A stretch of 25,833 bases of DNA from the IMG/VR virus record IMGVR_UViG_3300032291_002242, positions 1 to 25,833 of that record. One strand, given 5' to 3'. Both the position numbers and the translations under genes were made by a program. Positions 1,014 through 25,640 of this stretch are shown here, piece by piece. Each line of letters starts with the position of its first letter. The stretch's first letter is position 1. The stretch is from a virus. Below the pieces are notes generated by a model. That model was given only the letters and a program-made list of their open reading frames with translations, did not search any database and was not told the DNA's origin.

Positions 1014-1565
1014 GTGGATTATTCGATAGTTACCCTGCCTAGAGTTGGCTCAAACTATCTTCAAGACAGGATACTCCAACATACTGGTTTGTTTGTGGAA
1101 AGGTTTCATACTCTTCAAGATAACAAAATGATAACGATAGCCAGAGACCCAGTAGAATTCCTGACATCAGAGGTGGCTATGTCTTATTTCTATGATACCT
1201 CAAGTACTACTTTAGACAAGTTAGTTAATAATAATTTAAGGAGTCTTTGGCTAAGCGATTACTCTAAGTACTTTACTGGCACAGATGATATGACTATGAC
1301 TGATCAGTTTGATATTATAATAGATTACGATAGGCTAATAAATTTCCCCGTTGAAACGATCAAAGCCATAGCCAGTAAGATGGATATTGATATTATAAGT
1401 GATGACTATGAGTCTGGTCGTCTTAAGGACTACACTGAGCATGGCCATATTATTTCAAGCAAAAGGGTTAAAGAATATGAGATGATCAGAGAATATGTAG
1501 AAGATACAGATCTATCCAAACTATATGACATTTACCATGCCATGCTAGATAAAGCCATACATTGA
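1014..1565 (+). CDS. Sulfotransferase-like protein (copy 1)
   Basis: A 183-residue protein with LPRVGSNYLQ near residue 8, matching the 5'-phosphosulfate-binding loop of PAPS-dependent sulfotransferases. ITIARDPVEF near residue 41 matches the RDP element that contacts the 3'-phosphate. The product would transfer sulfate from PAPS to an unknown acceptor. At 183 residues it is shorter than typical sulfotransferases (about 250-300). GTG is the start; TAGAAT (1002-1007) lies six bases upstream. The stop TGA is embedded in the -35 TTGACA of the next promoter. A diverged paralog is at 5725-6267. Confidence 0.65.
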   Translation: MDYSIVTLPRVGSNYLQDRILQHTGLFVERFHTLQDNKMITIARDPVEFLTSEVAMSYFYDTSSTTLDKLVNNNLRSLWLSDYSKYFTGTDDMTMTDQFDIIIDYDRLINFPVETIKAIASKMDIDIISDDYESGRLKDYTEHGHIISSKRVKEYEMIREYVEDTDLSKLYDIYHAMLDKAIH

Positions 1566-3280: not shown

Positions 3281-3302
3281 ATGAGTAGTGTATAATAGTT
3301 AT

Positions 3303-3911
3303 ATGCCATATATAGTTAACAATCAGCCTGTTGGACATGACCCAAGCGATATCGAAAGAAAACCATCGTATATGGAGTTTTTCGAAAAGATAGGAAACTC
3401 TCCAGATAACATAAAGGTTATACCAAACTTTCTTTCTGATAAAGAGATTAGATATCTTTTGTCACATATAGATGAAAGAAGAATGGTAAGTTTTGTTTCT
3501 CAAAAAGATAACGATGGCAATCCTGTTTCATGGATTCACAACTATGAAGGAATTCGTGACAAAGATAATGTAATCGGCAGGATATCTGATGAAATAAAAA
3601 AGGCATATCAGATTGAAAACATTGAGCCAAAAAGCGATAGACTAAATCTTGCAAGATGGGATGTAGGCACTAAACTAGGACTTCATGTTGATGATCTTGG
3701 TTATGTAACAGACAATCATTTGCCAACACTTGTTTATTTAAATGATAATTATGAAGGCGGAGAGTTGGGTTTTGCTACACATGGTTTTGTATTTAAACCT
3801 AAGAAGGGTGACCTAATCATGTTCCCTGGAAATATGCACTATGCACATGAAGTATTTGAAATTTTGTCTGGAACAAGATACACACTACCTATCTGGTTTA
3901 CAATACCGTAG
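3303..3911 (+). CDS. 2OG-Fe(II) oxygenase, prolyl-hydroxylase (P4Hc) type
   Basis: A 202-residue double-stranded beta-helix oxygenase. The iron triad is visible as H128 and D130 (GLHVDDLG) and distal H182 (YAHEV), and R192 (SGTRY) is placed to bind 2-oxoglutarate. The enzyme should hydroxylate a protein or small substrate, releasing succinate and CO2. The start is set at 3303, not at the in-frame GTG at 3288, because TATAAT (3291-3296) lies exactly six bases before this ATG and the longer reading would include the -10 box. It is homologous to the C-terminal domain of the fusion protein at 4182-5582, with only one small gene between them. Confidence 0.85.
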   Translation: MPYIVNNQPVGHDPSDIERKPSYMEFFEKIGNSPDNIKVIPNFLSDKEIRYLLSHIDERRMVSFVSQKDNDGNPVSWIHNYEGIRDKDNVIGRISDEIKKAYQIENIEPKSDRLNLARWDVGTKLGLHVDDLGYVTDNHLPTLVYLNDNYEGGELGFATHGFVFKPKKGDLIMFPGNMHYAHEVFEILSGTRYTLPIWFTIP

Positions 3912-3925
3912 GGTATAATTAAAGA

Positions 3926-4192
3926 ATGACAATCGGTCAAGAAGGACACACAAAAAAAAGAATACTATTAGATGGATCAGAAGTAAATGACTATGATTAT
4001 CCAATTGATTTAATATTACATACCAAGGCACCTGGAAAGTGGAAGTTGATAGATCTTGAGACTGGTCAAGAATATCTTGGGTCAGAGATTTCTCACGAAA
4101 CATTTGGAGAAATTTTAAGAAGTAAAGTAGCAAAGGCTAAGATAGGATCTTGGTTTAAAACAAAAGGAAGAGTAATAAAAAATGGAAAATAG
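3926..4192 (+). CDS. Conserved-looking 88-residue protein, unknown function
   Basis: A small soluble protein with an acidic first half (DGSEVNDYDYPIDL), a strand-rich middle (KWKLIDLETGQEYLG) and a basic C-terminus (KAKIGSWFKTKGRVIKNGK). No family is recognised. TATAAT (3914-3919) is six bases before the ATG. Its last 11 bases overlap the start of the monooxygenase fusion, so the two are translationally coupled. That suggests it may act as a partner or adaptor of the fusion protein. Confidence 0.6.
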   Translation: MTIGQEGHTKKRILLDGSEVNDYDYPIDLILHTKAPGKWKLIDLETGQEYLGSEISHETFGEILRSKVAKAKIGSWFKTKGRVIKNGK

Positions 4193-5582
4193 CAACAAGC
4201 CTATAACTTTTCACTGGATGTGGAGAAGACACTGGCAGGTAAATGACAGCACCGAACACTTAGATCTTAAAGGTATTCTTGGTATGGCACAAGAACTAGA
4301 TGGGGCAAATGTAAAGTCTGTATTGCTTCCTTATGGTCCAGGGGGTATTGATTTTTCATTAGTTATAAAAGAATCATTAGAAAAAACAAATCAACTAATA
4401 ATGACGATTGCTTTACCAGCATATGGAACAAGTCCTGACTATGCTGCTAAAATTGTTGATACTTTAAATAGGTTTGCACCTGGAAGAATTGGTGTAAATC
4501 TTGTTGCTGGAAGATGGGGAGATGAAGGAAATGGACCATCAGAGAAAATAGTTTTAGATCATTACATGCATGACTCAAGTCTTATTGATACCCTAGAGAA
4601 AAGAGTAGCAATATCTGCAGTCTGGATGGATAAGTTTATGGATTTAATGAGATTTCACAAGCATAAAACTCACATGGCTGTCGTTGGTTCTTCAGACACC
4701 ACAATTGAAATAGCAAACAAGCACTGTGAATATGCATATGTTGACGATAACTTGCTTTATAGCGATCAATTTAAGAAGATTAATCTTGATAAAGTAAAGC
4801 CAATAGTTATTATTGATCCGCTAATTATTAATAACCTAGATGATGAAAAAAATGTTAAGTATGATAAAAATGCACCAGTAAGAAGACAGAATCACCATGT
4901 AAAAGGAACGCTAGAACAAGTAAAGAGTCAAATAAGAAAAATATCTAGCAATTATGGAGTATATGATTTTATGATTCATACAGATCAAGAAGATATTAGC
5001 CAACTTCTTAAACTTGTTAAGGAGTTTAATGGAGAAGAGTTGAGCACGGTTAAGCCAAACCTAACACATGAAAACTTTTCCAAAATTGGAAGCAAGGCAG
5101 GCAATGTAAAAATATTTAATAATTATATTAGCAAAGAAGAATGTGAAAGCATAATAAGAATGATTAAAGAAACAGAGACAAGCAATGTAAGACCACTTCA
5201 ATCTCAAGCGCTATCCTTAGTCTATTATGACTCGCTCAATCTTCCAGAAAAGTATGTGCCTGGAGTACACGCTATGCTAGAAAAAGAATATGATGTTAAA
5301 GTAAAACCAAGACATGCTCGTTTTGCTGAGTGGATACATAACAGTAGTCAAACAATTCCTATCGACGACATGGGATCAAAAGATTCAAATCATATGGCTG
5401 GCTGGGTATATCTAAATGATGACTATCATGGCGGAGAGATTTCATTTATTAATCAAGACATATCTTTTAAACCAAAGGCTGGTGATCTGGTTATGTTTCC
5501 TGGAAATATGCACTATTGGTATAATGTTGGACCTGCAAATGGATCAAGATATATAATGCCTGTGTGGTTTGATTTTGTTTAA
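4182..5582 (+). CDS. Luciferase-like monooxygenase fused to a degenerate 2OG-oxygenase domain
   Basis: A 466-residue two-domain protein. Residues 1 to about 270 look like a bacterial luciferase/SsuD-type (FMN- or F420-dependent) TIM-barrel monooxygenase: LPYGPGGIDFSL, MTIALPAYGTSPDYAAK, then FAPGRIGVNLVAGRW. Residues about 300-466 align with the neighbouring P4Hc enzyme (KPKAGDLVMFPGNMHY, GSRYIMPVWF). In that alignment the first iron ligand is P393 instead of His, D395 is kept, and the distal His is Y447; R456 remains. The C-terminal domain is therefore probably not an iron oxygenase and may bind substrate. The start overlaps the 88-residue gene. I know of no standard family with this domain order. 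Confidence 0.8.
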   Translation: MENSNKPITFHWMWRRHWQVNDSTEHLDLKGILGMAQELDGANVKSVLLPYGPGGIDFSLVIKESLEKTNQLIMTIALPAYGTSPDYAAKIVDTLNRFAPGRIGVNLVAGRWGDEGNGPSEKIVLDHYMHDSSLIDTLEKRVAISAVWMDKFMDLMRFHKHKTHMAVVGSSDTTIEIANKHCEYAYVDDNLLYSDQFKKINLDKVKPIVIIDPLIINNLDDEKNVKYDKNAPVRRQNHHVKGTLEQVKSQIRKISSNYGVYDFMIHTDQEDISQLLKLVKEFNGEELSTVKPNLTHENFSKIGSKAGNVKIFNNYISKEECESIIRMIKETETSNVRPLQSQALSLVYYDSLNLPEKYVPGVHAMLEKEYDVKVKPRHARFAEWIHNSSQTIPIDDMGSKDSNHMAGWVYLNDDYHGGEISFINQDISFKPKAGDLVMFPGNMHYWYNVGPANGSRYIMPVWFDFV

Positions 5583-5724: not shown

Positions 5725-6267
5725 ATGAGTAATGACTTACCACCACACCTTCTAACATTTCCAAGAAGTGCTTCTCACTATTTTGATAGACTTGTTTATA
5801 ATAAAGTAGGATTTCATATAGAAAGATCTCATATAGTTAATCATTTATTTGATAAAGACAATAACAAAAAAAGAAGAATAGTTACAATAGTAAGAGACCC
5901 AATCGAAAGCATATCTTCTCTTGTAGCCTTAGAAAAATCTCTTGTCTCTAACTCTAATAGAGTAAATGAAATAGTGTCAGAGTATGTTTTGCTCTATAAT
6001 TTTTTGTATGAAAATGCAGACTATGTTATAGATTATCAAGATCTAACAAAATATCCAGACTTAGTGATTGATAAGATATTAAATCTGTTAGATATAAATA
6101 AAGAAAATTCTTTTAATTTTGTAACCGATATTGACTATAATAGTAAAAATTTTGTTGAATCAAGTAAAAGTTTGTCTGGCTACAAAGAAGTTAAATTAGA
6201 TAATCACAACATTGAACTTTGTTATTTTTATTATAATAAAATATTAAAAAATAAAATAATAATTTAA
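5725..6267 (+). CDS. Sulfotransferase-like protein (copy 2)
   Basis: A 180-residue paralog of the gene at 1014-1565. LTFPRSASHYFDRLVY near residue 9 is the PAPS 5'-phosphosulfate loop; VTIVRDPIES near residue 53 is the 3'-phosphate element. A conserved I-D-Y element (YVIDYQDL, compare IIIDYDRL) follows in both copies. The C-terminal third is AT-rich and lysine/asparagine-rich and is more diverged. It is translated right after the zinc gene (spacing one base). The product would sulfate an unknown acceptor. The short length suggests a phage-specific minimal sulfotransferase, or loss of activity. Confidence 0.65.
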   Translation: MSNDLPPHLLTFPRSASHYFDRLVYNKVGFHIERSHIVNHLFDKDNNKKRRIVTIVRDPIESISSLVALEKSLVSNSNRVNEIVSEYVLLYNFLYENADYVIDYQDLTKYPDLVIDKILNLLDINKENSFNFVTDIDYNSKNFVESSKSLSGYKEVKLDNHNIELCYFYYNKILKNKIII

Positions 6268-13713: not shown

Positions 13714-13995
13714 TTACTCCATTGTTAATGATTGCCATGTCATTCCCCAGTCATTTTTGCTCTTGTGATTAGAAAACTCTTTTGATATTTCTCCATTTTC
13801 TAAGTATACACCACCCCAGACACCCCACTCTTTTCCTGAAATCCCAACAGAAAAACATTCTTTTCTCACTGGACAAGAAAAACATAGCGCATCAATCGCT
13901 GGTCTTAGCAGTTCGTCATCCTCATACTTTTCAAAAAATATATTTGTATCGTAGTCTAAACAAAGAGCACTGTCTTTCCATTTAAATCTATTCAT
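13714..13995 (-). CDS. whiB: WhiB-like iron-sulfur transcription regulator
   Basis: A 93-residue WhiB protein: first cysteine at ALCLDYD, the CFSCPVRKEC cluster that supplies three more ligands to the 4Fe-4S centre, and GVWGGVYLENG with the conserved G-V-W-G-G turn. The usual basic AT-hook-like tail is weak: only scattered lysines follow. WhiB-like proteins bind the host principal sigma factor and are found only in actinobacteria and their phages, so this gene is the best host marker in the window. Phage copies can compete with host WhiB regulators. Confidence 0.9.
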   Translation of the reverse strand: MNRFKWKDSALCLDYDTNIFFEKYEDDELLRPAIDALCFSCPVRKECFSVGISGKEWGVWGGVYLENGEISKEFSNHKSKNDWGMTWQSLTME

Positions 13996-18918: not shown

Positions 18919-18947
18919 ATTATACCAGTTTACCTGCATATTGTAAA
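18919..18947 (-). promoter_or_regulatory. Endolysin promoter
   Basis: On the minus strand: TTTACA (18947-18942), 17 bp, TATAAT (18924-18919). A short leader of about 20 bases contains AGGAGG. The promoter lies in the last codons and just after the stop of the carbamoyltransferase gene. Confidence 0.75.
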
Positions 18948-20354
18948 GTTGTATTCTTTTTCCCATTTAAGGATATCGCTTTCATCGTTCAAAAGTGGCT
19001 GACCTTTTATATTAAGGCTAGTATTCAAAAGCACTGGCACTCCAGTCTGGAGATAGAACTTGTTTATTACTCTATATAGACCTGGGTGCTGCTCTCTAGT
19101 AACTGTCTGTACTCTAGAAGTTCCATCCTCATGTACCACAGAAGGAATCTTATCTGGTTTCAAACACTTTACTGTATATTGCATATACGGACTTTCAAAG
19201 TCCATATCAAACCATTTGTTGGCATGGTCTGCCAAAACCACTGGAGCAAAAGGTCTAAACAACTCTCTCTGTTTAATTCTATTTACTTTGTCTTTAATAA
19301 GTGGATCTCTTGGATCTGCAAGGATTGATCTATTTCCTAATGCTCTGGGACCGTATTCTGCTTTACCTGATGCTACTGCTACTATTCCATCCTTCAATAT
19401 GCCGTCCACAATTTTTTGAATTGGATAACTACCGCCTAAGTCATAACCAAGATATGGACTTTTCCATTCTATATGCTTGCCATAGAGCGCTGCTGCAGCA
19501 CCCAAAGAACTTCCCGCATCTCCTGGATTTGGCATAATCCAAACCATGTCAAATATATTCCACAGCAATGTGTTGGCTGATGAATTAAGAGCACACCCAC
19601 CCATGAATACAAGATTCTTTTTGCCAGTAATAGACTTAGCCATACGCATAAAATCATTTAATCTTTGCTCATAAACAACTTGAACTGCTGCAGCAATGTC
19701 AAACTTGTCTTGCTCCGACTCAATCCATCCCCAATCATGTATGCCCTTATGAAAGTTATATTTCTGTTGATCGTAAGAAAGAAAGTATTCATTAACTTTT
19801 TTATAGTATTTTGTCCAGTCCCCGTAAGCAGCCATACCCATCATAATGTATTCTTCTTGGTTTGGCATAAGTCCAATTAGTTGTGTAAAGGCTGAATAAA
19901 ATAATCCAAAACTAGTAGGATAGTTTTGCTTATACTTTAACTTTATCTTGTCACCCTCTCCAACCCAAATTGTTGAAGTGTTGTATTCCCCAATTGCATC
20001 TAAAACAACAATTACAGCATCATTAAATGCACTTGTATAATATCCTGCTGCTGCGTGAGAATAGTGATGGCTAAAAGATTTTCTTGGCACACCCTCTATA
20101 TTAAACCTTGGCTTCCAGTCTCCTGCACCACCCCTTAAAGCCAGCCTAGAGGCCTTTAGGAGGGGTTTTTCATAGTAGGCAATGTGATCTGGTCTTCCAT
20201 ACTGCAATGCATCTTTTACTAAACTATCATTCACATACCAGTCATTTTTTTGTTTGCTATATCTTTCTGCATGCCCTGCAAAAAGTATTTCTCCATCTTT
20301 TATTAAAGAAACTGATGCATCATGAGATGTCTCATTTACTCCAAGGATTATCAT
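18930..20354 (-). CDS. NodU/TobZ-type carbamoyltransferase
   Basis: A 474-residue, full-length enzyme. The N-terminal Kae1/TsaD-like ATPase-like domain has GVNETSHDAS at its start and the metal-binding HHYSHAAAGYYTS (96-108). GGCALNSSAN and PNPGDAGSSLGAA follow. The C-terminal domain has GPRALGNRSILADPRD and FRPFAPVVL. It would transfer carbamoyl from carbamoyl phosphate (via carbamoyl-AMP) to a hydroxyl group of a sugar or small molecule. The last gene of a six-gene minus-strand operon, 19 bases after the P4H-like gene. A hydroxylase upstream could create the acceptor hydroxyl. Confidence 0.9.
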   Translation of the reverse strand: MIILGVNETSHDASVSLIKDGEILFAGHAERYSKQKNDWYVNDSLVKDALQYGRPDHIAYYEKPLLKASRLALRGGAGDWKPRFNIEGVPRKSFSHHYSHAAAGYYTSAFNDAVIVVLDAIGEYNTSTIWVGEGDKIKLKYKQNYPTSFGLFYSAFTQLIGLMPNQEEYIMMGMAAYGDWTKYYKKVNEYFLSYDQQKYNFHKGIHDWGWIESEQDKFDIAAAVQVVYEQRLNDFMRMAKSITGKKNLVFMGGCALNSSANTLLWNIFDMVWIMPNPGDAGSSLGAAAALYGKHIEWKSPYLGYDLGGSYPIQKIVDGILKDGIVAVASGKAEYGPRALGNRSILADPRDPLIKDKVNRIKQRELFRPFAPVVLADHANKWFDMDFESPYMQYTVKCLKPDKIPSVVHEDGTSRVQTVTREQHPGLYRVINKFYLQTGVPVLLNTSLNIKGQPLLNDESDILKWEKEYNFTICR

Positions 20355-20372
20355 TGATTATCTTTCTGTTTA

Positions 20373-20936
20373 TTAATTGAGGTCTGGATCAACAATTGTA
20401 TACCCCTCTGGGTGCTCTGTCTGTGTTGTATGCATATAAAGAAGGGTTGTTCTTTTGCCACTTTCTATTTGAGATATACCATGTCTCCACAAATCTCCAT
20501 CACTTAAGAAAAATATACCATCATATTTTTCTGGCTTGTATGTAAAATTAATACCTGGGAAATATAAATCTCCTCCAGTAAAGTCATCATCAAGATATAT
20601 TACAGTGCTATACTCAATAAACTCTTCTGGTGGCTGATCATCAATATGAGGATTTGCCGAACTGCCTTGTGTCCAGACTGAGCCAAAGGACTTAAATGTT
20701 TTTATTTGTTTTGTTTCTTCTGGGTTTAGTCTTTGATGCACATCGTTAGACAATAGAGAATATTTTTTTTGAATGTCTAAGACTGTCTTGTTATACGGAT
20801 AGGCAGTTCCGCCATACCTTGTCTTATAGTATTCTGGATATGGATTAACCTCTGATGGACTTTTAATCTCATCTATTAGTATCTGTGAATCCTCAGCAGT
20901 AATAAAGTTTTTAATTATAATTGGTGTTGTTATCAT
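20373..20936 (-). CDS. 2OG-Fe(II) oxygenase, P4Hc type
   Basis: A 187-residue enzyme. PHIDDQ gives H97 and D99, WRHGIS gives distal H152, and SGKRTTLLY gives R162 for 2-oxoglutarate; IYLDDDFTGGDLYFPG is the typical core. All catalytic residues are present. It would hydroxylate a protein or small-molecule substrate. The ATG overlaps the stop of the glycosyltransferase gene, so the two are coupled. Compared with the gene at 3303 it is a distant relative, not a recent duplicate. Confidence 0.85.
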   Translation of the reverse strand: MITTPIIIKNFITAEDSQILIDEIKSPSEVNPYPEYYKTRYGGTAYPYNKTVLDIQKKYSLLSNDVHQRLNPEETKQIKTFKSFGSVWTQGSSANPHIDDQPPEEFIEYSTVIYLDDDFTGGDLYFPGINFTYKPEKYDGIFFLSDGDLWRHGISQIESGKRTTLLYMHTTQTEHPEGYTIVDPDLN

Positions 20937-21769
20937 TAATGTATCTCATTCTGCACTACATGAAATCTTTGCTCAGACACTAGATCTAGATTTGAAAAGA
21001 AATTATACTCCACATCGTTTACAGGATATGGAAAATATTCCAAACGACGAAAATCATAGTCTATAAGGTTCATAAGTTCCTTAACACCAGGCATGCACTC
21101 CTCTTTTGATTTAAAAGAATCTATAACTTTTGAATAGTTATGATATAAAGAAAATGGTATGAAATCATTTTCTTTTATATTAGGTTCTTGATCAACCACT
21201 AAATTAGTTGGAATAGCCACTATAGAAATTCCTTTGTGTGCTGCGTACATTGAAACATATTCATCAACCCCATAATTTTTAAATATTGAAATATCAGGCA
21301 AATTTTCAAACAAATCAAATTTCATAAAGAAAAAATCTTTAACAAACCAGTTATTTTTTGTTGCTGTTGATATTTCTTTTTTATTGTAATCTGGATAAAA
21401 CTTATAGTTATTTTTATTAAATACAATATTATAATTTCCTGATACAATTGTGTTTGTTTGACCTTGGTATCTTAGTAATTCATTATCCCAATCTTTTTCA
21501 AACATTTTTGCACCATCAATATACATAAAAAAATCAAAACTTTTTTTCTTTTTTAAAAGATATAGGCACTTAAATCTAGATACTAGACTGTCCCAATGTA
21601 CATGATTGTACTCTACCCCTAAAAACTTTTCTGGCCTTGACACATTTGTTTGATCGTATACGACAACATGTATGTGATTATGACCGCTTTGATTTTTTAT
21701 GAGTTGCTCTACCGCTTGTGGTAGTGCTTTACTTTTGTACCCATAAAAATAAACTAATATTTTTTTCAT
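20936..21769 (-). CDS. GT-A-type glycosyltransferase-like protein
   Basis: A 277-residue protein. MKKILVYFYGYKSKALPQAV is a first Rossmann-like strand and helix, FMYIDGAKMFEKDWDNELL contains a D-x-(A/D) type acidic motif followed by the W-D of GT-A families, and YGVDEYVSMYAAHKG is a likely acceptor/catalytic element. The organisation recalls GlcNAc transferases of the GT60 type, which act on hydroxylated proline in eukaryotes, but the similarity is by eye and weak. It lies two bases from the next gene (21771). Confidence 0.55.
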   Translation of the reverse strand: MKKILVYFYGYKSKALPQAVEQLIKNQSGHNHIHVVVYDQTNVSRPEKFLGVEYNHVHWDSLVSRFKCLYLLKKKKSFDFFMYIDGAKMFEKDWDNELLRYQGQTNTIVSGNYNIVFNKNNYKFYPDYNKKEISTATKNNWFVKDFFFMKFDLFENLPDISIFKNYGVDEYVSMYAAHKGISIVAIPTNLVVDQEPNIKENDFIPFSLYHNYSKVIDSFKSKEECMPGVKELMNLIDYDFRRLEYFPYPVNDVEYNFFSNLDLVSEQRFHVVQNEIH

Positions 21770-21770
21770 T

Positions 21771-22436
21771 TTACAGTAATGGAATCCAGTGTTGTTCTAT
21801 CGTGTGGCTTCCGCCTCTAAGCAAAGACTCCAGAGGCTGAATGTCATACGCAACTGTAATTCTTGAACCTTCCCAATCCCAGTCCCCCATAGCATGTGGG
21901 TGTCCCATTTCTGAAACAATCATTCTGTTATTAATGTTGTGGTTTGCAACTTCTCTTTTTGGATCACCAAAAAGTCTGTAGTAAGTTGTTGATGGCTCAG
22001 CCTTTACACAGTAGTATCCATGAAAATTAGGGGCGCCAGGTGCACCATGATCATGCCAATTTAACTTTCCATTTCCCTTGCTGTTTATATTAAACCAGCC
22101 TTGAACATAGTATTTCTGCTTTTCAAAATCTACACCGTAGTATTCACAGGCTTCCTTAACAGTCTTTGATAATTCGGAATATAGTTTATGCAAAGATGGA
22201 TGATAAAGTTGAAACACATTATATTCTCTCCACTTTACAGTTGACAGGCTTCCAGACTCTAGCCAGTAGCCTGGATCATTCTCCATTGTTTCTACCCCAC
22301 GAAGTTTAGCATTTTCAATCAACTCATACTTTTCTTCTAAAAACTTAGTTAACTGATCTAAATCGTTGTCTAGATATTTTTCAAAAAACTTATGCTCCTT
22401 GTTGCTTTGCGACAAAGACCCATTTGTATTTAACAT
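21771..22436 (-). CDS. 2OG-Fe(II) oxygenase of the 2OG-FeII_Oxy_5 kind
   Basis: A 221-residue protein. VQGWFNINSKGNGKLNWHDHGA (central part WHDHGA at 127-132) supplies the first iron ligands as H-D-H; HGYYCVKAEP follows the family's G-x-Y-Y strand; HPHAMGDW gives a distal histidine and GSRITVAYDI gives the 2OG-binding arginine R192. This pattern matches the PF13759-like phage/cyanobacterial branch rather than P4Hc. The substrate is unknown. Its ATG overlaps the stop of the DUF6065-like gene by one base. Confidence 0.7.
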   Translation of the reverse strand: MLNTNGSLSQSNKEHKFFEKYLDNDLDQLTKFLEEKYELIENAKLRGVETMENDPGYWLESGSLSTVKWREYNVFQLYHPSLHKLYSELSKTVKEACEYYGVDFEKQKYYVQGWFNINSKGNGKLNWHDHGAPGAPNFHGYYCVKAEPSTTYYRLFGDPKREVANHNINNRMIVSEMGHPHAMGDWDWEGSRITVAYDIQPLESLLRGGSHTIEQHWIPLL

Positions 22437-23200
22437 TATTTTTCTCCCTCATTGTTTATTTTTTCTTTGTTGTACTTTGCATATTCTTTTTTTCTCCATG
22501 CAAATTTTCTATAGTGTGCTGTTATATCAGACCTTCTATTTTCTGATCTTAGTTTATGTTTTTCTATAGCCTCAAAAGAGTCATCAATCACTAAGTTCCA
22601 AGGCTCTCTTTTGATTGGTATCATCTGAAATACTGGAGTTCCCATTGGTATTATTCCTTCAAAATCTTTTTTTATAAAGAATGGTATAAAGGCAGGCAAT
22701 CCCCAAATGTCAGAATCAACTATTCCAGATGGAACCCAAAATGGCAAGTCTGGTCTATTTATTGGCATAGTCATAAATAGAGAATAATCTTTTGGTGTTT
22801 CATAATACCATTGCATCTTAACACCAAAATGTATAGGGTGAACATCTTTTGGAATTGCCATATCAACATTAGGACGTTTATCCATCATCATAAAGTTCTT
22901 TTTCCAAGACAGTGATGGCTTGCCAGATATATCAAGTTTTACCTCTAGATCATCCTCTAGTGAGTACATATAACCAAGAGACATTGCGTCCTGAAACGGC
23001 AAGCAAAGTTTTGTAGAAACATTTGATCCGTCTGCACCCCTATCATTTACTGGACACAAAGATTTTAGGTCGTTGCTTGTGAAGTGCTTTGCCAAATCTC
23101 TGTACCACTGTGGTATTTTTTTATAAGATGGCTCTGGAGACACTAGATCTTTGTCTGTGTAGTGTGGAGTAAAAGTTAGTTCTAACTCATTGTTGTCCAT
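22436..23200 (-). CDS. DUF6065-like protein
   Basis: A 254-residue protein without a known enzyme motif. SPEPSYKKIPQWYRDL, KLCLPFQDAMSLGY, SGIVDSDIWGLPAFIPFF and IPMGTPVFQMIPIKREPW are the elements I associate with the DUF6065-type proteins found beside oxygenases in phages and marine bacteria. No function is established. The C-terminus is a basic helix (RKKEYAKYNKEKINN). It overlaps the upstream gene by 14 bases. Confidence 0.65.
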   Translation of the reverse strand: MDNNELELTFTPHYTDKDLVSPEPSYKKIPQWYRDLAKHFTSNDLKSLCPVNDRGADGSNVSTKLCLPFQDAMSLGYMYSLEDDLEVKLDISGKPSLSWKKNFMMMDKRPNVDMAIPKDVHPIHFGVKMQWYYETPKDYSLFMTMPINRPDLPFWVPSGIVDSDIWGLPAFIPFFIKKDFEGIIPMGTPVFQMIPIKREPWNLVIDDSFEAIEKHKLRSENRRSDITAHYRKFAWRKKEYAKYNKEKINNEGEK

Positions 23201-23846
23201 AGTAATCCTTTATTTTAAATATCTCTGTGTCGCTTAAGTTAACAGACATATCGTACATTGCAGTATTCTTACTAATAATAGCATACTTTTCTTTTAATTG
23301 GTGTTGTCCAGTATTCTTAATTTTAAAATCAATAAAATCTGAAAAAGCATACTCCGATGTATCTTCTATTAGTTTAGCAATAATATTTTTTTCATTTATA
23401 TAAAATGGTGTATCTTCGTTTTTTACTTCAGTGATACTAACATCAATGTCTTTATTTATAAACCACGGAATATAAAATCTATATGTTGGGTCAAAGCATT
23501 CTGTATTTTCTAAACTATTTAAAGATGGATAAAACTGTCTTTGATGACATTTATCTAAAGCGTATAGGGTATTGTCGTCTTTTTCTTCAACCCAAATCTC
23601 AGCATGAGTCCTTTGTCTAAAAGTAATTCTATTATCTATTATACTTATAATTTCTGGTCTTGGATATAGATTAAGAACATAGTTATTAACTGGCTTTAAA
23701 ATACTATCTATTTCTAAAATTTCTTTTGAGTTATACCTAGACCAAATATTTGGAAGTCCTGACTGAATTATTATTTCTGGCAAAGATAAGTTTTCAGAGT
23801 TTACCCACCATGGGGATCCTGAAATATTATTTTTTTTAATTATCAT
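23187..23846 (-). CDS. First gene of the tailoring operon, unknown function
   Basis: A 219-residue soluble protein. PWWVNSE, LYPRPEI, ITFRQRTHAEIWVEE and FDPTYRFYIPWFINK suggest a beta-sandwich with conserved aromatic/proline turns, similar in flavour to the DUF6065-like protein that follows. A beta-sandwich that pairs with that protein is one possibility. No family is recognised. AAGG stands shortly before the ATG, and TATAAT (23879-23884 on +) is 32 bases upstream, so it has a leader. Confidence 0.55.
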   Translation of the reverse strand: MIIKKNNISGSPWWVNSENLSLPEIIIQSGLPNIWSRYNSKEILEIDSILKPVNNYVLNLYPRPEIISIIDNRITFRQRTHAEIWVEEKDDNTLYALDKCHQRQFYPSLNSLENTECFDPTYRFYIPWFINKDIDVSITEVKNEDTPFYINEKNIIAKLIEDTSEYAFSDFIDFKIKNTGQHQLKEKYAIISKNTAMYDMSVNLSDTEIFKIKDYYGQQ

Positions 23847-24002: not shown

Positions 24003-24881
24003 TTAGTTACGAATGTATGATGCAGCACCAATTAAAATCTTTGGAAGAGAAGTTAGATACTCCCCAAATGTTTTAAAGGTATTGCGATTTACATATGATG
24101 CTGCTGAAATTACTGTTGCTACAGAACTTCCAGAAGTTTTTAGTTCTGAACCATTATATTTTGTAACAGTTACACGACCAGGTGCTACTATATCAAGTCC
24201 AGGACCTGTATTTGTTGCTGGCTCTAGTTGTGTTTCGTTTCCAAGTGCACCTACGCCAATTGCCCCATTGACACAAGAAGGAAATCCAACCACATCTCGT
24301 CGACGGTCATTTCCTGTTGCAACAAATACTGGAATATTATTAGAGGTTAGAGATGAAATAGAATTGATAGTTCTAACATCTTTTGAGCATCGATCAAGAG
24401 CAAGGCTTGATTGGCTAACTGATACGGCGTCAATACTATACTTTGATGCATTTTGCGATACCCATTCAAGTGCTAAGTCAATTGTGCGGTTAGAAAATTG
24501 ATTAGTTCCGCCAGACTTTTCCATATTTGCAATTCTTACAAACACAATCTTAAGGTTAGGATTAACTGTTAATGCAGCCTTAACCATTGTGTCTCCGTGG
24601 AAAACGCCATTACTCCACCCGCTAGTTGGCCATACTGAGTTTCCCGCTGCGCCTTTGCCTTCCATAAAAGTGCTACCGTTTGGACATAGTACGGACCCAC
24701 CGAATTTCAGAGCAAAGGAATCATTTGCCGTAAAGCATGCTTCTTGAATGATTGATGGAAAGTTATTTGAGTTAATTGCAGAGTCAATAATTGCAAGAAC
24801 CTTTTGATCTTCTGCTTGTGCTGGCTGTGTTACTGTTATTAGTAGTGCTGCTGATAGTAGTGCTAGTAGTGTTTTTTTCAT
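24003..24881 (-). CDS. Secreted subtilisin-like serine protease (S8)
   Basis: A 292-residue protein. A signal peptide (MKKTLLALLSAALLITV, cleavage near QPAQA-E) is followed directly by the catalytic domain, with no propeptide visible. D33 (AIIDSAIN), H95 (FHGDTMV), oxyanion N191 (VATGNDRR) and S253 (TSGSSVATVISAAS) make the S8 set. The enzyme should be exported by the Sec route and act outside the host membrane. AAAGGA precedes the ATG. A secreted subtilase is unusual for a phage; host envelope remodelling or attack on competitors are possible roles. Confidence 0.85.
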   Translation of the reverse strand: MKKTLLALLSAALLITVTQPAQAEDQKVLAIIDSAINSNNFPSIIQEACFTANDSFALKFGGSVLCPNGSTFMEGKGAAGNSVWPTSGWSNGVFHGDTMVKAALTVNPNLKIVFVRIANMEKSGGTNQFSNRTIDLALEWVSQNASKYSIDAVSVSQSSLALDRCSKDVRTINSISSLTSNNIPVFVATGNDRRRDVVGFPSCVNGAIGVGALGNETQLEPATNTGPGLDIVAPGRVTVTKYNGSELKTSGSSVATVISAASYVNRNTFKTFGEYLTSLPKILIGAASYIRN

Positions 24882-25115: not shown

Positions 25116-25640
25116 CTAAAGGCTAACAATGTCAACTGGACCCATGCATGACGGGTTAAATTTAATAGCAGCATTTACTGCTTGCATTACTCTGTTTCTT
25201 GCATTTTTTTGTTTATCTGTTGCGTATAAAACACCGTATGCGTATTCTGCACCAGATCCCATAGCAAGATATGGCAGTGTATATTTAGATAAAGACATAT
25301 CTGCAGAACTGTGCTCATAGATTTCTCCACGAACCGCAATAATCAAACCAAGATCTCCGTCTTTTGATGTGTCTACCCAGAACTCGTTATAAAATTCACG
25401 AAGTTCTTTTACAAACCTAGTTTGCATAAACTTGTCTGTGTCTTTAATGTTGGGAGGAGTTGGTTTAAAATTATAACGGATTCTTTCTCCGTCCATCGCC
25501 CCTGCATATCCAATTAGGTATGGACCTATCTTCCAAACTTTTGGAGCAGATAGTGCTAAAATAGTACCATCATCTGATGCTCCACGATCTCCAGCCATAT
25601 AAATTTTATCTTCATGTTTTACAACAGCAATGCAAGTCAC
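25116..25640 (-). CDS. Proteasome-beta/HslV-like NTN hydrolase
   Basis: A 174-residue protein. T2 (MTCIAVV) is the N-terminal nucleophile after Met removal, D18 (AGDRGASD) and K34 (APKVWKIG) are the supporting catalytic residues of proteasome-type peptidases, and MGSGAEYAYGVLYAT fits the later conserved helix. It has no propeptide. GTG is the start. Phages of actinobacteria sometimes carry such proteasome-like proteins; the substrates and any partner ATPase are unknown. It lies close to the promoter at 25674-25703. Confidence 0.85.
   Translation of the reverse strand: MTCIAVVKHEDKIYMAGDRGASDDGTILALSAPKVWKIGPYLIGYAGAMDGERIRYNFKPTPPNIKDTDKFMQTRFVKELREFYNEFWVDTSKDGDLGLIIAVRGEIYEHSSADMSLSKYTLPYLAMGSGAEYAYGVLYATDKQKNARNRVMQAVNAAIKFNPSCMGPVDIVSL

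Follow-up and report, generated by a model that had tools for sequence, protein, structure and literature searches.

A mobile gene cassette for candidate virion-protein modification in large freshwater phages

The gene block and its inheritance

The virus record IMGVR_UViG_3300032291_002242, which was analysed over its whole length of 25,833 bases (36% GC) and is called the window in the following, carries on its minus strand a block of six genes, g1 to g6, that are predicted to encode two DUF6065-like proteins, two 2-oxoglutarate (2OG) and Fe(II) dependent oxygenases, a glycosyltransferase and a carbamoyltransferase (Table 1). The genes g1 to g5 are best explained as a mobile cassette with which large freshwater phages, probably those of Actinobacteria, modify a virion protein. 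The cassette probably hydroxylates proline repeats of the phage's own tail fibre and may glycosylate them, and g6 is a looser partner of one of the oxygenases, g3.

Table 1. Genes of the block and further genes in the window
Feature	Position	Strand	Length	Assignment
g1	23187-23846	minus	219 aa	divergent DUF6065-like protein, g2 paralogue
g2	22436-23200	minus	254 aa	DUF6065-like, predicted dUTPase-like beta fold and long C-terminal helix
g3	21771-22436	minus	221 aa	probable 2OG-Fe(II) oxygenase, Oxy_5 type
g4	20936-21769	minus	277 aa	predicted GT-A glycosyltransferase, GT60-like
g5	20373-20936	minus	187 aa	prolyl-4-hydroxylase-like 2OG-Fe(II) oxygenase
g6	18930-20354	minus	474 aa	Nol/TobZ-type O-carbamoyltransferase; tied to g3, separable from the block
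Subtilase gene	24003-24881			upstream of the block
Peptidase gene	25116-25640			proteasome/HslV-like, upstream of the block
WhiB gene	13714-13995			PF02467, 3.6e-11
Long ORF	4182-5582			2OG-FeII_Oxy_3 domain at the C-terminus (3.4e-7)
Second Oxy_3 gene	3288-3911
Small protein 1	1014-1565			sulfotransferase-like appearance
Small protein 2	5725-6267			sulfotransferase-like appearance

All six open reading frames (ORFs) that an earlier note on this DNA had listed, with overlapping or nearly touching ends, are indeed present, and the gaps between consecutive genes from g1 to g6 are -14, -1, +1, -1 and +18 nucleotides (nt). Full-length alignments link each of them to relatives in 20-80 further viral contigs in which the gene order is kept, and they are therefore real genes and not chance ORFs. 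The borders of the "six-gene operon" are a matter of choice, because the unit of genes in the same direction runs on into a CHAP endolysin gene that lies 15 nt beyond g6. Upstream of g1 there are 156 nt and a tRNA-Asn gene, then the subtilase gene, which together with the proteasome/HslV-like peptidase gene accompanies the block in near relatives. A promoter scan gave a result no better than that for shuffled sequence. No near DNA match to the window was found among phage records, and its nearest relative, G001, covers 86% of the window at 82% identity. From the WhiB gene we infer that the host is likely actinobacterial.

How the genes are inherited was followed on a synteny map built from 80 loci that contain g3. 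The earlier note had suggested looking for the same block in other phages, and it is present there: in about 30 near relatives g1 to g5 are complete and in the same order, with g1 found only alongside g2, g4 and g5, and in a different phage group (L055-L077) the order is g2', g1, g2, g3, g4, g5 with an additional oxygenase, but with no g6 adjoining the block and none of the flanking genes of the window. In 24 further g3 loci, g1, g2, g4 and g5 are all missing together, and the cassette changes its state at least three times on the g3 tree. As g1, g2, g4 and g5 are jointly present or jointly absent around g3, they form one functional unit with it. A search of 84,980 bacterial and archaeal genomes did not find g3, and no precursor-synthesis genes accompany the block in the synteny map.

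The carbamoyltransferase gene follows rules of its own. It adjoins g3 in nearly all of the 24 loci that lack the other four cassette genes, and some other loci have it upstream of g1. In the L055-L077 group it is either missing or placed away from the block. The idea of one six-gene pathway, in which hydroxylation, addition of a sugar and carbamoylation follow each other, had to be given up because g6 is separable and its distribution differs from that of g1, g2, g4 and g5; it is a looser partner of g3. In the loci L013-L019 and part of L025-L050, g3 and the carbamoyltransferase gene are a conserved pair without the remaining cassette genes, and this pair may be a modification unit of its own.

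Predicted functions of the gene products

In g5, the 2OG-oxygenase residues H97xD99, H152 and R162 are conserved among relatives, and with this HxD...H arrangement, the 2OG-binding arginine and its profile similarity the protein is of the prolyl 4-hydroxylase type. Its profile finds, among solved structures, prolyl 3-hydroxylase 1 at 1e-11 and bacterial prolyl 4-hydroxylases at 2e-8, and the 2OG oxygenases of PHROG 61 are matched at 3.5e-9. The earlier P4Hc call is thus a good one: g5 appears to be a prolyl-4-hydroxylase-like oxygenase, for which proline hydroxylation activity is predicted.

For g3, the Oxy_5 call stands moderately well, and the claim of two 2OG oxygenases in the block is supported. 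The residues H128-D129-H130, H181 and R192, corresponding to the metal and 2OG motif set, are near-invariant in 33 relatives. A direct Pfam match of g3 was not obtained, and its profile leads to the cyanophage protein SCREM1_75, a good member of PF13759 (Oxy_5), at 7e-6 in a set of 19 sequences. After a broad, poorly aligned oxygenase set had been replaced by a small Oxy_5 set, hhalign gave a weak match (E 0.003, probability 11%). It is thus a probable 2OG-Fe(II) oxygenase of the Oxy_5 type. Comparison ruled out that g3 and g5 are close paralogues, and the profile search of solved structures with g3 gave nothing usable; formin matches were weak and implausible, and matches to PoNi_C and Tn916-Xis were under the cut-off and are not believed.

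An AlphaFold model of g4, built with 34 relatives, has a pLDDT of 87.9 and a pTM of 0.86, and in structure comparison it is closest to the polypeptide N-acetylgalactosamine (GalNAc) transferases (GalNAc-T2, Z 17.3), followed by the LH3 transferase domain and heparosan synthase at Z 13-14. Going by this model, g4 is a GT-A glycosyltransferase, and the call of the earlier note, which was to fall if structure comparison failed, has passed that comparison. The resemblance to GT60, a family of N-acetylglucosamine transferases that act on hydroxyproline and Ser/Thr, holds as well, by fold and through relatives: PF11397, the Pfam entry for GT60, is matched by 10 of 34 g4 relatives (best 8.7e-5), and hhalign of the g4 profile against a true GT60 protein of G001 gave E 3.8e-6. 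The g4 of the window itself has no PF11397 match at E<=1 in the Pfam search, the profile search of solved structures gave nothing usable, and no g4 match was found in phage records. The WD and GxEE/DE motifs are retained in nearly all relatives.

Also the DUF6065 relationship of g2 is one that stands through relatives: PF19541 (DUF6065) is matched by 23 of 40 of them (best 2.7e-7), but the g2 of the window itself has no match at E<=1, and in the scanned contigs of relatives all PF19541 matches are under the curated cut-off. PHROG 7084 is matched by g2 at 3.2e-30. For the AlphaFold model of g2 (pLDDT 78.5), all top 50 rows of the comparison with solved structures are dUTPases, the best with Z 10.3 over 125 residues at 2.8 A, and Foldseek found a dUTPase at 6.8e-4 only; a long C-terminal helix follows the dUTPase-like part. 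The modelled fold of g2 is thus dUTPase-like. Its GIVDSD resembles motif III of dUTPases, by eye only, and the cyanophage relative SCREM1_70 is annotated as a triphosphate nucleotidohydrolase. The protein g1, which had been listed as unknown, indeed has no Pfam or PHROG match of its own, yet it is not unrelated to its neighbour: the g1 and g2 families align in hhalign with E 2.6e-5 and 75% probability, colinear over 178 columns, and g1 is by this alignment a divergent paralogue of g2. The motifs PxNxY, DKxxxRQFYPS and PW are conserved in 34 relatives of g1. No paper on DUF6065 was found in the literature searched. In Roseobacter-type and other alphaproteobacterial sequences (L244, L245, L247, L248), a chromosomal DUF6065 gene ends an ABC-transporter-like gene group, and some alphaproteobacterial chromosomal DUF6065 genes lie beside a TPR-like gene.

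Both Pfam domains of g6 are matched above their cut-offs (PF16861 at 6e-54, 182 bits with a cut-off of 27; PF02543 at 7e-34, 118 bits with a cut-off of 24), it matches PHROG 1601 at 1.6e-106, and the nearest solved structures are NovN, GdmN and TobZ. Judged by these matches g6 is certainly a full O-carbamoyltransferase, as had been proposed.

Tail-fibre genes and the proposed mechanism

In the L055-L077 group, the block is embedded in the structural cluster: it begins immediately behind a tail-fibre gene with (F/Y)xFTP repeats, and LamG, portal and head genes come after it. On the 115 kb contig G003, it directly follows tail-fibre genes and precedes LamG-like, portal and major head genes (structural names assigned by eye), and the product of the gene preceding it combines Fn3 domains and FGFTPFGFTPFSFTP repeats with a Hint-like domain, the last recognised partly by eye. 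This fibre gene, with a separate DUF6065 gene after it, is found also in the clade of the window, as in the nearest relative G001; that of this phage falls outside the window. The tail DUF6065 gene was located by a scan at 80 loci, and a low-complexity fibre gene lies upstream in all untruncated ones (74/74).

The repeats of these fibres are of two kinds, proline-free (FGA)n or (FSA)n versus proline-bearing, the latter with FSFAP, FGFTP, YSFTP, FSPFGFSP and tracts of VPLPTPVPVPVPVP or APTPAPTPVPTP. The motif [FY]x[FY][TSAV]P occurs in 16 of the 16 contigs that have both cassette and fibre (background 0.28 per 1000 residues), and the sole cassette-minus contig with a fibre has zero such motifs. 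If contigs are paired by sample and not by genome, with sample lists compiled by hand, eight samples combine the cassette with proline fibres, seven lack the cassette and have proline-free fibres, four are mixed, and there is no discordant sample (Fisher p 1.6e-4). Cassette and fibre proline thus covary. Two tail proteins of the relative G002 (L092:9607-11715 and L093:692-1840) consist in part of dozens of YSFTP repeats, with 49 and 27 motifs, and the first of them has a PASTA-like start, by eye.

An association of DUF6065, oxygenases and fibres recurs in unrelated phages. Among phage-like contigs binned with bacterial genomes, the T4-like L250 combines a Hint fibre carrying Pro-rich QTPFTYQNPVNAQQPNIRNAQ repeats with DUF6065 and two oxygenases, one of PF13640 and one of PF13759; L240 has three oxygenases and two DUF6065-type genes together with an FFPPFFPFFPP fibre; and in L242, DUF6065 occurs with FSFVPFGFTP repeats and a Hint-like domain. 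In the cultured cyanophage S-CREM1, the genes for Gly-rich fibre proteins are followed in one run (L253:18664-26781) by those for a tryptophan halogenase, for a DUF6065-like protein and for eight annotated 2OG oxygenases; its describers list these oxygenases without a link to fibres (PMC9964418). In haloarchaeal tailed viruses, DUF6065 adjoins a Gly-rich adhesin and a tail fibre.

The earlier note had left the target open between a virion protein, a peptide, a cell-wall glycan and a small molecule. Genome context narrows this list, as it points to a tail-fibre protein rather than a small molecule, host glycan or DNA. The full mechanism that we propose for g1 to g5 with the optional g6 is tentative, and it is held with slightly more doubt than confidence. 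It would start with g5 hydroxylating prolines within the low-complexity part of a tail fibre that has Fn3 domains, then FSFAP/FGFTP/YSFTP or TPVPVP-type repeats, and then a Hint-like domain. Next, g4 would add a sugar, perhaps an N-acetylhexosamine, to the new hydroxyl or to a neighbouring Ser/Thr, and a further residue of the same fibre would be hydroxylated by g3. The proteins g1 and g2, with the dUTPase fold and long C-terminal helix, would hold the fibre as non-catalytic adaptors or chaperones, and g6, functionally nearer to g3, may carbamoylate a hydroxyl. The gene block, its joint inheritance, the folds or families of the enzymes, the linkage of DUF6065 with fibre genes and the covariation of cassette and fibre proline are computational results, whereas that the fibre is the substrate, the order of the steps, the identity of the sugar and the roles of g1, g2 and g6 are what we infer.

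Several points weigh against this mechanism. In the clade of the window, the metal motif of g4 is DGA and not DxD/DxH, and it is gone in the relatives L055, L075 and L078, which is why g4 is filed as GT60-like and not as a GT60 member; by these motifs, some g4 copies may be inactive. In G001 the block lies at 44 kb and the fibre at 102 kb, which is 58 kb apart. The fibre motif was picked after the data had been seen, only one cassette-minus case has the fibre on the same contig, and the single motif of the plus contig G010 is explicable by chance. A serious caveat is that the covariation amounts to about two evolutionary changes: apart from one nested return, the proline-free type is essentially a single clade in the tail-DUF6065 tree. 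This return of proline (L210, sample 32283) coincides with a nested return of the cassette (L024, same sample), as expected if cassette and fibre are coupled, but the number of events, two, is small. No g4 is seen in six incomplete contigs that carry an FxFTP fibre, DUF6065 and g3. DUF6065 occurs also beside Gly-rich fibres without proline repeats, near ribonucleotide reductase genes and not fibres in the cyanophage S-RIM4 (a DUF6065-like gene), and, with neither fibre nor cassette, in chromosomes of Roseobacter-type bacteria and Bradyrhizobium. In chlorovirus virions, hydroxyproline was sought and not detected despite an active viral enzyme (PMC7019647).

Alternatives, known systems and further genes

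A possible but unlikely alternative has a virion or tail protein as the target of the cassette but no hydroxyproline glycosylation: the oxygenases would hydroxylate residues other than proline (Phe, Asn, Asp, Lys, Gly-rich parts), and Ser/Thr would be glycosylated directly by g4. The structures nearest to g4 are GT27 Ser/Thr polypeptide GalNAc-transferases, Ser/Thr and aromatic residues are abundant in the fibre repeats, and clusters of DUF6065 and oxygenases adjoin also Gly-rich fibres that have no Pro repeats. Direct Ser/Thr glycosylation without hydroxyproline is quite possible. GT27 Ser/Thr transferases prefer nearby Pro. It is on the other hand prolyl hydroxylases that g5 matches best, and the presence of the cassette tracks the proline of the fibre.

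Auxiliary metabolism or a change of the host surface, with a glycan, peptide or small molecule of the infected host as the target, is rather improbable and suits the gene neighbourhood less well. Solved relatives of the g6 family do act on antibiotics and sugars, and 2OG oxygenases of cyanophages are usually interpreted as metabolic genes (PMC9602691), but the lack of accompanying precursor-synthesis genes, the failure to find g3 in about 85,000 bacterial and archaeal genomes and the genomic linkage to fibre genes all speak against it. It is improbable, too, that adjacency to fibres is a historical accident in a hypervariable, cargo-collecting region, with genes of separate functions. Fibre regions of phages are variable, and further cargo lies nearby (SDR, ribonucleotide reductase, several oxygenases), yet g1, g2, g4 and g5 are kept or lost jointly, and the link of DUF6065, oxygenases and fibre recurs in phages that are unrelated.

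DNA hypermodification, in which a pyrimidine base would be the target of oxygenase and glycosyltransferase and 5-hydroxymethylcytosine (5hmC) that of the carbamoyltransferase, is highly improbable. In its favour, 5hmC is carbamoylated in vitro by a phage enzyme of the g6 family (PMC8670742), the fold of g2 is dUTPase-like, and g5 has a weak Tet-like similarity. But that 5hmC system is tied to thymidylate-synthase-type genes and not to fibre genes, and because nine contigs of relatives (85-119 kb, possibly incomplete) have neither such a gene (PF00303, 0/9) nor a Tet/JBP match (PF12851) over the cut-off, this reading is disfavoured, as it is by the place of the cassette among late structural genes in L055-L077 and by the likeness of g4 to peptide transferases.

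The proposed modification of fibre prolines has a close parallel in the Skp1 system of protists, in which a GT60-family GT-A N-acetylglucosamine transferase glycosylates the hydroxyproline made by a soluble prolyl hydroxylase (PMC8724618). The Skp1 substrate belongs to a eukaryotic ubiquitin ligase, there is no DUF6065, Oxy_5 or carbamoyltransferase, and the phage g4 is a distant relative with an altered metal motif. Extensins and arabinogalactan-proteins of plants and algae are likewise hydroxylated and then glycosylated on (A/T/V/S)-Pro repeats, which by eye occur in fibres of the closest relatives of the window, but the glycosyltransferases are others and the secretory pathway is used. LH3 and the mimivirus collagen enzymes also hydroxylate and then glycosylate a repeat protein, and the g4 model compares with the glycosyltransferase domains of LH3 and mimivirus R699 at Z ~13; these systems differ in using hydroxylysine, fused enzymes and eukaryotic hosts.

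Among viruses, the prolyl 4-hydroxylase of chlorovirus PBCV-1 acts on Pro-containing peptides (PMC7019647). It is virus-encoded, as g5 is. We know of no GT60/DUF6065 block linked to the PBCV-1 enzyme. Mycobacteriophages carry virion glycans on capsid and tail tube proteins (Freeman 2023, as cited in PMC12619734). Virion glycans of a phage are the shared element in that case, and the enzymes differ. To our knowledge, a hydroxylation step does not belong to mycobacteriophage virion glycosylation. In a paper on phage collagens, bacteria and viruses are stated to be without prolyl hydroxylases (PMC3368898). The fibre mechanism proposed above would, if true, mean that hydroxylation followed by glycosylation of proline repeats occurs in bacterial viruses, on the organ with which they find their host. 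Such modification of proline repeats is known in plants, algae and some protists, and we know of no demonstrated case in a bacterial virus.

For the numerous 2OG oxygenases of aquatic phages, usually accounted for as genes of host metabolism, the mechanism would also provide a function that can be tested, and DUF6065 would gain its first role. The analysis names a substrate motif and an isolated phage with a related cluster, S-CREM1. The more far-reaching claim, that phages carry a complete system for hydroxyproline glycosylation of fibres, with a prolyl 4-hydroxylase and a GT60-like enzyme acting on extensin-like or (F/Y)xFTP repeats, DUF6065 adaptors and fibre proline co-evolving with the enzymes, is doubtful. 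If true, DUF6065 together with 2OG oxygenases would mark a widespread class of phage fibre modification that includes cyanophages and T4-like phages.

A true GT60 gene (PF11397, 1.2e-31) is found in G001 at L086:2159-3127 (G001 82159-83127, minus strand), about 1.8 kb from the gene of a collagen-like tail protein (G001 84931-85662). The collagen-like protein is present in G001, G002, G008 and others; as a substrate it was set aside, since it was not found in G003, and it is retained as a side possibility only. In the window, the long ORF with the Oxy_3 domain is an apparent fusion, its first ~300 residues resembling, by eye, a luciferase-like flavin monooxygenase. The two small sulfotransferase-like proteins are alike, and the first of them has a Sulfotransfer_1 match at 1.5e-4, slightly below the family cut-off.

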